Assembly: GCA_027061995.1 (NCBI GenBank)
Contig: JAMOUT010000010.1
Location: 1 to 60,709 of the forward strand
Direction of reading: 5' to 3'
DNA: 60,709 nt
Source of the DNA: Candidatus Aminicenantota bacterium
Lineage (GTDB): Bacteria; Acidobacteriota; Aminicenantia; JAMOAD01
Of the stretch, positions 3,753 to 46,260 are shown one piece after another. A model generated the notes under the pieces. The model ran no database searches. It was given only the letters and a program-made list of their open reading frames with translations, and had not been told where the DNA came from. A program made the translations under genes and the position numbers. Within the stretch, counting starts at the first letter, position 1. Each line of letters begins with the position of its first letter.

Positions 3753-4124
3753 ATGAGAGATGTAAAAAATTATGAGGTATTTTTAAAATCGCATGAAATG
3801 GTGTTGGAAATTTATAATCTGACAAATAAATTTCCCGCCCTTGAAAGGGAAACTCTCGGGAATCAATTGAGAGATTCAGCTTCATCCATTCCCATAGCAC
3901 TAATCAATAGTAATTACAGAAAATCTTCGGTATTTTTCGATTATATCCGAAAAGCTCTCGAAGGTAAGGAAAGATTGGAGTATTTTTTATTATTATCAAA
4001 AGAACTGAAAATATTGGATCAGAATAAATGGGAAAAACTGTATGAGCAACTGACTGTTATAAGTAAAATGCTTGTGGGAATCTATAAGAGAAAAAACGGA
4101 GCAAAAAGCGGAAGTGATAATTAA
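3753..4124 (+). CDS. Four-helix-bundle protein (23S rRNA intervening-sequence type, TIGR02436-like)
   Basis: A 123-residue all-helical protein. Features typical of the family include the N-terminal FLKSHEMVLEIYNLTNKFP, LGNQLRDSASSIP, and a C-terminal pattern of two long helices (SVFFDYIRKALEGKERLEYF). Relatives occur inside 23S rRNA intervening sequences, as stand-alone genes, and as the Avd accessory protein of diversity-generating retroelements. The usual IPSNIAEG signature after the second helix is changed to IPIALINSNY. GGAGGG precedes the start. It ends the pseudopilin operon and is followed directly by a noncoding repeat region with a GTGAGAAGTGGGAAGT tail. No reverse transcriptase or variable repeat is present. 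Confidence 0.75.
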   Translation: MRDVKNYEVFLKSHEMVLEIYNLTNKFPALERETLGNQLRDSASSIPIALINSNYRKSSVFFDYIRKALEGKERLEYFLLLSKELKILDQNKWEKLYEQLTVISKMLVGIYKRKNGAKSGSDN

Positions 4125-4742
4125 TAATCAAAAAGTGAGAAGTGGGAAGTATTAGTCAAGGCTTTCAAGCATCAAAGCCAACAGCGGCGGATCTCCTCTT
4201 GTTTCACTCGCTTCGACCTCCCGATATTAAAATCAAGCATTCGCCACGGCTGACAGGTCTGTTCCAGCTTTTTCAAAACCGTGCCATACAGAGCCTCAAA
4301 GCCAAAAGCCTCGAAGCTTTCTCAAAACCGTGCTATATTCAGTCACAAACCGAAAAGCTTTTTATTGCAGGGCTTTTGGGTTTGCGGTTGAATGCAAATT
4401 TAATTTTAAAAAAAAATATAACAAAAAGGAGCTCGGAGTGAACGAAGTGAATGTAGGAGCAAGAGCTGAGAGCTTTGATAGCGTTAAGCCCAAAAGGTTG
4501 CATTGGAGATTCGGAAGCTATCGAAGCCATAAAAAACTTGCTGTTTTGAGCTAAATAGCTACTGTGCGGGATCTTCACTTTGTTTTGACTTTCCGGGTTT
4601 CCGGCAATTTCAGCCATCCGATTTTGCTGATATATATTAAAAAAAGTTTGAAGATACTTCGATGTTTTGAAAACAGCGTGAGACAATATTCTTCGAAACC
4701 ATTCCATTCTTTTACCTTTTTTATTCGATTTTCGGGGTTAGG
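4125..4742. repeat. Degenerate noncoding repeat region
   Basis: This 618-bp stretch has higher GC than its surroundings and no credible gene. It opens with a short tandem tail (AAGTGAGAAGTGGGAAGT, 4133-4150). TCAAAACCGTGCCATA (4273-4288) recurs as TCAAAACCGTGCTATA (4322-4337). CGGCAATTTCAGCCATC (4602-4618) recurs near 8300. CGCTTCGAC and CGGCGGATC (4185-4217) recur inverted at 24919-24944. Phrases such as AAGCCTCGAAGCTTT recur at 24990. It seems to be a decayed member of a dispersed family. Confidence 0.55.
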
Positions 4743-8207: not shown

Positions 8208-8419
8208 GAAAGAGTATGTTTATATGTTGGAATTTCAAAATATTTGATTAAAGAACACAGTAAGATCCGGGTATTCTCCGAGACAGAATTTCGGATTATC
8301 GGCAATTTCGGTCGTCAGTTTCTGTTAAACCATAAGAGGAGGTTCCGGATTTGATAACTCTAAATCTTCTTATCCCCGTTTTTGCAAAAACAGGTGATTT
8401 TCAGTAATATTATCTATCA

Positions 8420-24844: not shown

Positions 24845-25025
24845 GGGAAACTAATTATGAATGCTGAATGATGAATTGTGAGTTATGAATGCTGAATACT
24901 GAATTATGAATTATGAATGTCGAAGCGTTAGCGAAGATCCGCCGTGGCGGGATGAGTTAAAAATGAATCAAGCCAAGAGCATCAAAGCATCGAAGCCTCG
25001 AAGCTTTTAATGGATGAGGTGAAAA
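24845..25025. repeat. Noncoding repeat patch with short tandem units
   Basis: From about 24854 to 24920 there is a run of imperfect 7-9 nt units (ATGAATGCTGA, ATACTGA, ATTATGA). It is followed by GTCGAAGCG and GATCCGCCG (24919-24944), which match 4185-4217 in inverted order, and by GAAGCCTCGAAGCTTTT, shared with the 4290-4320 region. It looks like a decayed copy of the same dispersed family. Confidence 0.55.
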
Positions 25026-26060: not shown

Positions 26061-26556
26061 ACAACAGTAAAATAAATTAAATATAAGAAATAATAATGAA
26101 AACTTATTTGATTGAACAAAGATTAAAAATCACTAAACTACTAATTTTAATTCGCTATATTTACGAGCTTCAAAAAACTCTGGTAGCTGAACAACCCGAA
26201 CCTGCAAAAAACACTAATACCCGGCACGACTTTAAAAAAGCATTTAAAAAGCCTCCAAGCCAAGAGCTTCCAAGCCTCAGGGGCAGCTTCCTGGGCTTAA
26301 AGCTATCAAAGCCCTCAGCTTTTGCTGATTCATGTTTTAAAAAGAGCTTTTGGCTGCCCGAAGGGACGGCTTTGGGCTTCGAGGCTGGTGAGGATGAAAT
26401 CCGAACCCGAACCTGCAAAAAACAGCAATCAAAAGCACGGTTCTAAAAAAAACTCAATGCTCGGAGCTTCCAAAACGGGCTGCTCTTCTTTTGAAAACAT
26501 AGGTGTGTTTACTTAAATTAAAAAATGGGTTAAAATTTTTTATTAGGAGGTTTAAG
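26061..26556. repeat. Noncoding repeat patch with direct repeats
   Basis: A 496-bp gap without a convincing gene. CCCGAACCTGCAAAAAACA occurs at 26195-26213 and again at 26406-26424, each followed by similar sequence (GCACG..TAAAAAA) for about 30 nt more, so a roughly 50-bp unit is duplicated 211 bp apart. Between the copies is GC-richer DNA with words such as AAGCCAAGAGCTTCCAAGCC, shared with 24970 and 4290. Open frames here lack ribosome sites and protein-like composition. Confidence 0.55.
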
Positions 26557-45938: not shown

Positions 45939-46260
45939 AAATTCGTAATGTAATCGGTAGCCAATATATACAGACATTCATTATTCAGGTATATCAACTT
46001 AATAAATCATCACTGTCCTGTAAAAAAAATAAAATTAAAGCGCCGTAAAAATAAAGCTGTCTTGTCCTGAAATAGTGTGCCGAACAGATGTTCCGGCGTT
46101 TGTAAAACCGTGTCAATTTTCAAAGCATAGTTAGAGTTAGGTTAGCGAAGGTTGATGATTATGGATGTTTATTGTTTAAAACTTCTCTGAAAATGGTTTT
46201 ATAATTGATTTTATTCTCTTTGAGGTTATTATTCCGTTTTTTTGAAAAATCTTTTTTTCC
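45939..46260. other. Gene-free gap with decayed repeat words
   Basis: No gene is supported. TGTCCTGTAAA (46016) and TGTCCTGAAAT (46073) form a short direct repeat, and GTAAAACCGTGTCAATTTTCAAAGC near 46102 echoes the AAAACCGTGC words at 4275 and 4324. The stretch probably belongs to the same decayed family as the 4125-4742 region. Confidence 0.4.

Follow-up and report, generated by a model that had tools for sequence, protein, structure and literature searches.

Genes for 23S rRNA-intervening sequence proteins, often set between inverted heptamer arrays, as the probable sole genes of small hairpin mobile elements

INTRODUCTION

Directly downstream of a gene for a 23S rRNA-intervening sequence protein (IVP) in the genome of Candidatus Aminicenantota bacterium lies a GC-richer patch, at positions 4125-4742 of the window, by which we mean the whole stretch of 60,709 nucleotides that was analyzed (contig JAMOUT010000010.1 of assembly GCA_027061995.1). 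Is this patch an ordinary spacer, or is it the trace of an element to which the gene itself belongs? An earlier note on this DNA grouped it with four other patches (8260-8320, 24845-25025, 26160-26480, and possibly 46015-46130) as a decayed noncoding element and hinted that such genes and their tails move with no transposase.

Proteins of this family occur in the intervening sequences (IVSs) of rRNA, whose origin and function are termed unclear in excerpts of PMC4990558. The same excerpts describe the 23S IVS of Coxiella as an S23p ORF with a terminal stem, mention that the structure of S23p from X. campestris has been solved, and cite Ralph and McClelland 1993 for the proposal that rRNA IVSs are mobile. 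Tandem repeats of 7 nucleotides (nt) in bacterial spacers form a second subject, for which excerpts of PMC4692102 report no settled role and excerpts of PMC4679880 offer only possible roles and origins. The terms IVS, IVP, and S23 were not found in these two papers, and among the matches listed from open-licence PMC full texts we found no published link between four-helix-bundle or IVP genes and heptamer repeats.

RESULTS

The patch downstream of the IVP gene is a mosaic of dispersed repeats

The IVP gene occupies 3753..4124 on the forward strand, and its product, a four-helix bundle, matches PF05635 (E 3.4e-17; 63 bits against a cut-off of 33.8) and PDB entry 2gsc (XCC0516, E 0.0035), a solved IVP from Xanthomonas campestris. 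A match to the bAvd family PF22296 (E 1.4e-5) stayed below the cut-off, with 25.9 bits against 40. The neighbors of the gene are annotated or predicted protein genes, those upstream including three with a pilin-type methylation motif. Rfam detected no rRNA in the window, and scans of the whole window gave no Rfam or tRNA match at all.

As had been noted earlier, the patch starts right after the gene: the IVP ORF ends at 4124, and a short forward-strand tandem array spanning its stop codon (4102..4159; TRF period 28, score 65) contains AAGTGAGAAGTGGGAAGT at 4133-4150. The unit of this array is of the GAAGTGA kind, like the flanks of the IVP gene on contig C42 of the same genome (the latter judged by eye). 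There follow, at 4160..4335 on the forward strand, an AAGCC-type array and modules of TCAAAACCGTGC, recognized by shared words and by own-genome matches at query positions 43-147, 142-297, and 142-209; TCAAAACCGTGC itself occurs twice, at 4273 and 4322, both within this first patch. A further dispersed module lies at 4455..4498 and matches other contigs by BLAST. With several repeat families thus mixed, the patch as a whole (4125..4742) is a mosaic, and arm-to-arm pairing around the IVP gene is not significant. Self-alignment bore out the suggestion that the repeat is dispersed, with at least 35 matches to the patch at an E value of ≤0.001 in the genome of 2.36 Mb (104 contigs, the window being contig C10), a lower bound since 40 of 114 candidates were scored. 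Sixteen matches were obtained in G003, a genome of another genus of the same family, and none in G001, G002, or G004.

The proposed kinship of the five patches held for some of them. By BLAST within the window, the first patch recurs inverted in the patch at 26160-26480 (4458-4492 against 26292-26326; 35 bp, 91%, E 3e-8) and weakly in the one at 24845-25025, where a forward-strand array of the AAGCC/AGCATCGA type at 24976..25007 (32 bp, 84%, E 0.009 with query A and 0.002 with query C) shows a TRF period of 8 at 24978-25004. No other patch matched 8260-8320 below an E value of 0.05, and 46015-46130 gave only a 27-bp match with an E value of 0.18 to 0.37. A word search of the window placed AAGCCTCGAAGCTTT at 4306 and 24993, CGGCAATTTC at 4602 and 8300, and GATCCGCCG and GTCGAAGCG at 24936 and 24919, with the last two on the opposite strand at 4185 and 4209. 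Beside these words, at 24853..24919 on the forward strand, is a solo heptamer array of the TGAATTA/TGAATGC type without an IVP gene (TRF periods 7, 14, and 28). The AAGCC-type patch at 26193..26450 is bounded at each end by a directly repeated 47-bp module (26193-26239 and 26404-26450; 79% by BLAST) and overlaps a small ORF at 26096-26446, so the description of the patches as noncoding fails in part. The first part of this ORF is common to contig C27 (74% over 84 amino acids), where the copy has one internal stop, and its 3' half consists of repeat.

In the whole genome, we counted 67 occurrences of the AAGCC-type pattern and 17 of a reversed control pattern. The 49 sites of the core AAGCC form fall into 34 clusters, 18 of which are no more than 1 kb away from a contig end (∼9% expected), as is expected of a repeat that breaks the assembly. 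Inverted pairs among the own-genome patches are mostly weak or self-palindromic. Outward-oriented AAGCC-type arrays flank two different AAA_14/DUF4143 ATPase genes (L020:1501-2946 and L002:96-1507, on contigs C31 and C43). Several contigs (L003:1-250, L005:1-130, L008:1300-1450, and L014:60-200) also carry, as judged by eye, a repeated module that combines a promoter-like TTGAC...TATATT with a GGGAGG ribosome-binding site; some copies have an ATG that is directly continued by an AAGCC-type array.

An IVP gene of this genome recurs together with its tail

The link to the four-helix-bundle gene stood up well. The genome has four IVP genes, and three of them adjoin the AAGCC-type repeat. Contigs C101 and C67 share one IVP gene, 98.6% identical over 283 bp that include an AAGCC-type tail; beyond these 283 bp, no similarity was found save one 47-bp repeat match, in a comparison limited by the fact that the C67 copy ends at the contig edge, with its upstream side off the contig. 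On C101, AAGCC-type sequence lies 5' of the gene and its complement lies 3'. On C42, GAAGTGA-type arrays are found 5' and complementary ones 3', with scores of 61 in direct and 48 in inverted orientation. The window gene has its AAGCC repeat and GAAGTGA-like tail on the 3' side only, and no complementary upstream arm was detected (upstream/downstream score of 24, below the 27 that marks the 95th percentile of mismatches).

The genome G003 contains a decayed IVP copy that matches C101 at 78% identity over 418 bp, a stretch beginning in one arm and ending in the other, without further flank similarity at an E value of ≤1e-5 except for one 38-bp repeat match. Beside the M99 peptidase gene in G003, G004, and G002, we saw by eye no IVP or array in the 1 kb next to the gene; the neighbors differ among these genomes, hence this place offers no clean empty site.

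The best explanation for these data is that C101 and C67 hold one element with AAGCC-type arms, cut in C67 by the contig end, and that 3753-4742 of the window is a decayed and overwritten element in which the IVP gene is intact, the left arm is unseen, and AAGCC remnants lie over the tail. By itself, the window speaks only faintly for a mobile gene and tail, having no upstream arm, mixed repeats, and two patches unrelated to the rest. The window patch might alternatively be a chance neighborhood of an old IVP gene and an unrelated AAGCC-type dispersed repeat, a reading in line with the lack of arms at this gene and with the occurrence of the repeat beside the ATPase genes. We consider it a possible yet doubtful account, since three of the four IVP genes adjoin a repeat whose core form is confined to 34 clusters in the 2.36-Mb genome and since a related IVP carries the AAGCC repeat in another genus (G003).

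IVP genes of many phyla tend to lie between inverted heptamer arrays

Beyond the window, the IVP genes of many phyla show a tendency to sit between inverted arrays of degenerate 7-nt repeats, the unit of which varies by locus. This was measured with an arm score that compares the 400 nt 5' of a gene with the reverse complement of the 400 nt 3' of it. IVP matches at an E value of ≤0.001 are present in 21 of 60 genomes of the class and comprise 66 genes, 60 of them testable and 6 with too little flank; against 3,312 cross-genome pairings, 44 of the 60 reach the 95th percentile and 28 the 99th. A wide set of 80 loci from many phyla was chosen by the IVP protein alone (the best 80 of at least 562 confirmed candidates), and among its 78 testable loci, 57 and 39 reach the 95th and 99th percentiles of mismatched pairs, whereas control ORFs from the same loci (n = 261) do so in 15% and 5% of cases. 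The two sets overlap: L142 is G008:C223, as judged by the arms, and L141 is apparently G042:C160, as judged by arms and position. Viral contigs behaved likewise, with 8 of 10 scoring at least 25 and 5 of 10 at least 32 (95th and 99th percentiles, 25.65 and 31.55), and 6 of 12 elements from cyanobacterial plasmids exceeded the 99th percentile. All these counts lean low, as the test is blind to a right arm that overlaps the end of the ORF; for this reason, L227 and L251 score only 22 and 16 despite folds that pair their arms.

Matches in direct orientation also exceeded chance, at 19/78 and 12/78 (95th and 99th percentiles) in the wide set and at 23/60 and 10/60 in the class set; together with the scores of C42, they indicate that the arrays are not purely inverted. 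Around 138 IVP genes, base identity at a lag of 7 nt was 0.393, compared with 0.265 at a distance of 300 to 400 nt; at a lag of 14 nt, the values were 0.363 and 0.264, and identity at a lag of 21 nt was raised likewise. In the 79 of these 138 loci with a score of ≥32, the matched arm has a median length of 34 nt and lies 36 nt 5' of the start and 22 nt 3' of the stop.

Close relatives share arm units, in that 13 of 29 pairs with a normalized IVP score of 0.7 to 0.85 reach an arm score of 40. Once close pairs were removed, no significant correlation between arm unit and IVP similarity was seen (35 of 300 permutations reached the observed value). In the protein, residues Q37, R40, S44, N48, E51, and E74 are each conserved in 91 to 98% of 140 sequences.

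Sites with and without the element in cyanobacterial plasmids

A search of 72,556 plasmids returned 41 records with an IVP gene, mostly cyanobacterial. Nine filled sites have a counterpart that lacks the element. The junctions are clean at three of them, sites 1, 3, and 8, where the direct repeats measure 5, 3, and 5 bp, respectively. Site 1 is filled in Trichormus and Scytonema and free of the element in Microchaete, where the two flanks are 98.3% and 96.6% identical; the insert is bordered at either end by GTAAT, of which the empty site has a single copy, and a Nostoc C052 plasmid holds a partial copy of the element. At site 3, the insert separates two genes that abut or overlap in relatives. 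Site 8 is filled in plasmids pNsp_a of Nostoc ATCC 53789 and pC052_D of Nostoc C052 and is without the element in pNsp_c of the same strain, ATCC 53789, and in a C057 plasmid. In pNsp_a, TTCTA is found at both ends, and a G that the empty site has next to the repeat is absent; because the right copy in C052 reads TTCTG, a word contained in the arm unit, this TTCTA may be partly arm sequence rather than a target duplication. At sites 2, 4, 5, 5b, 6, and 7, a relative without the element exists and the junction is blurred by further change. Direct repeats that may be target-site duplications, for which the earlier note had advised to look, were thus seen at the three clean junctions, with the reserve just given for site 8. 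Clean presence and absence in relatives, which had been proposed as a check, was obtained in these plasmids and not at the place beside the M99 peptidase gene.

Relatives without the element were also found at nrdB/nrdA, at cas6/cas4 (two different IVPs), at cas10/cmr3, and at secretion genes. At the three clean sites (L227, L226, and L251), the insert lies at or right after the stop codon of the upstream gene. Three IVP genes (L224, L234, and L249) lie within CRISPR operons: in Anabaena sp. 90, an IVP gene stands between cas6 and cas4, as does a different one in Pseudanabaena galeata, and in Picosynechococcus 7003, where the gene is between cas10 and cmr3, the annotated end of cas10 falls in the left arm. 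Two plasmids of one Calothrix strain carry one IVP element with TAGGGTG-type arms 3' of an integrase gene, within a shared block (L221 and L222).

The elements of sites 1 and 8, both of the 5-bp cases, belong to one IVP subfamily and are 78% alike at different insertion sites. Their IVP genes have a Ka/Ks ratio of 0.12 with a dS of 1.2, which is near saturation; with this reserve, the protein seems to be kept by selection. Derivatives without the gene occur as well. Site 2 in pNsp_c of Nostoc ATCC 53789 shows, by eye, a pair of inverted arms that enclose no annotated IVP, a 170-bp copy that apparently lacks the IVP and retains both ends is among the matches listed, and in Nostoc N6 the site-8 element is split by an IVP-less insert with like arms, for which no clear target repeat was found. 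In RNA folds of two clean elements, the arms pair and form a long stem that closes off the ORF (z scores of -3.10 and -3.07), in agreement with the RNA structure that the earlier note had thought worth seeking; the window copy lacks matched arms.

Insertion rather than precise loss presumably explains the filled and empty sites, although precise deletion between short repeats could imitate it.

Candidate mobility enzymes and other origins of the arrays

We surveyed reverse transcriptase, Y1 transposase, and Transposase_31 and found no mobility enzyme for the IVP elements. As none of the three is present in all IVP-bearing genomes, each was rejected as the mover. One way to account for the data would nevertheless be that the elements resemble MITE or REP sequences and owe their movement to a conventional transposase acting in trans (Y1/RAYT, Transposase_31, or an IS enzyme), with the IVP gene as a passenger. 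The short direct repeats and the IVP-less derivatives fit this account, as does the restriction of Transposase_31 to IVP-bearing genomes (5 of 21, compared with 0 of 39 others), one copy of which, YhgA-like, lies beside an AAGCC array on contig C57 (L007:1356-2324). Yet Transposase_31 is missing from the other 16 IVP-bearing genomes, including the five with the most IVP matches (G029, G036, G008, G018, and G005), and Y1 (PF01797) has no match in the genome of the window and no association with IVP in the class (16/21 IVP-bearing and 35/39 other genomes, P = 0.25). Arm sequences that vary by locus and the purifying selection on the IVP reading frame of one pair also tell against this account. 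A transposase acting in trans may yet be involved; we hold it to be unlikely.

A less probable account still is that IVPs are ordinary genes and that the heptamer arrays grow in situ by polymerase slippage, being tolerated or selected because the IVP binds the hairpin or the arms serve as terminators. The high variability of the arms in unit and length would agree with it, and so would the solo heptamer array of the window. Excerpts of PMC4692102 (Rehm 2015) cite slippage for heptamer repeats and describe those of Xanthomonas as often forming convergent pairs (70 cases in Xcc). They also report that most of the Xanthomonas repeats have the same neighboring genes in two strains and occur where stability is raised, that inverted pairs are few in Nostoc PCC 7120, and that the repeat is absent from the plasmids of PCC 7120; these last results argue against frequent movement and against the view that all heptamer arrays are debris. 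However, at clean filled and empty sites the ORF and the arms appear together, an IVP end and its tail are nearly identical at two loci (C101 and C67), and slippage alone should not yield two arms that are complementary to each other.

That a resident reverse transcriptase moves the elements by retrotransposition, with the IVP as an Avd-like accessory as in a diversity-generating retroelement (DGR), is the least credible account, for despite the subthreshold PF22296 match of the window IVP and the long RNA stems around two ORFs, PF00078 is without a match in the genome of the window (95% complete) and there is, unlike in DGRs, no genome-level link between IVP and reverse transcriptase in the 60 genomes of the class (4/21 IVP-bearing and 6/39 other genomes, P = 0.73). 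Avd of DGRs is a related four-helix-bundle protein, to which that weak match points.

DISCUSSION

Taken together, we consider it probable that IVP genes are the sole genes of a broad class of small (∼0.4- to 0.6-kb) hairpin mobile elements, each an armed IVP ORF inserted in a spacer or at a gene end, and that rRNA IVSs with an S23p ORF are of the same kind. The elements probably lack a recognizable transposase. In this respect, the hint given by the earlier note was right in kind, in part: support for a gene and tail that move came from outside the window, that is, from the inverted arms, the filled and empty sites, and the C101/C67 duplicate.

We propose that an element consists of an IVP ORF flanked by a pair of inverted arms, which are built of degenerate 7-nt tandem repeats. 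The arm unit would differ between elements and match within one, so that either strand could form a long hairpin whose loop contains the ORF, and this hairpin may be the moving form. Insertion would take place in spacers or at gene ends, and the junction would be marked by a short direct repeat, of 5 bp at the two cleanest sites. The IVP, as a pentamer, might bind the hairpin, either in its own transcript or in displaced DNA, and bring it to a staggered break, where host enzymes would join and copy it. The arms could then expand, shrink, and diverge by slippage, and IVP-less arm pairs and solo arrays would be the leftovers. With its near-invariant residues Q37, R40, S44, N48, E51, and E74, the IVP may well take part in the movement.

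By analogy, rRNA IVSs are likely members of this class. In excerpts on the 23S rRNA IVSs of Coxiella and Leptospira, the protein family is the same and the ORF likewise lies within a long stem. In the Coxiella IVS, tandem GACAGAT heptamers precede the S23p ORF in a copy number that varies between strains (excerpts of PMC4990558), as in the IVP elements described here. The unity of the two thus draws on one published case, that of Coxiella, in the excerpted text. In contrast to rRNA IVSs, the elements reported here lie in spacers and at gene ends rather than in rRNA, have locus-specific units and several copies per genome, and have element-free relatives at nine sites.

The arms also resemble the heptanucleotide repeats of cyanobacteria, Xanthomonas, and Beggiatoaceae (STRR, GGGAATC, and TAACTGA), which are 7-nt tandem arrays in spacers, as here. 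Excerpts of PMC4679880 report such repeats from Beggiatoaceae and cyanobacteria and consider a mobile carrier for TAACTGA. Features of STRR-type repeats were found in our data, namely, the excess of identity at a lag of 7 nt near IVPs and the tandem 7-nt array at 24853-24919 of the window, and we conjecture that STRR, GGGAATC, and TAACTGA repeats are debris of IVP elements. MITEs and REP/BIME sequences are likewise small and palindromic, with IVP-less forms and short direct repeats; the IVP elements differ from them in having no fixed terminal sequence across loci and in carrying a conserved gene, and no cognate transposase in the manner of MITEs or REPs was found among those tested.

A bolder version, to which we give tentative and somewhat less than even credence, is that these are bacteria-wide transposase-less elements whose IVP would, by way of its near-invariant residues (Q, R, S, N, E, and E), itself carry out or nucleate hairpin insertion, so that rRNA IVSs would be one niche and much of the unexplained heptamer repetition in spacers would be debris. 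If the elements do form one mobile class, this would tie rRNA intervening sequences to the 7-nt repeats of spacers and would give a role to the widespread "four helix bundle protein." The question can be tested in culturable cyanobacteria, for example, Nostoc and Trichormus.
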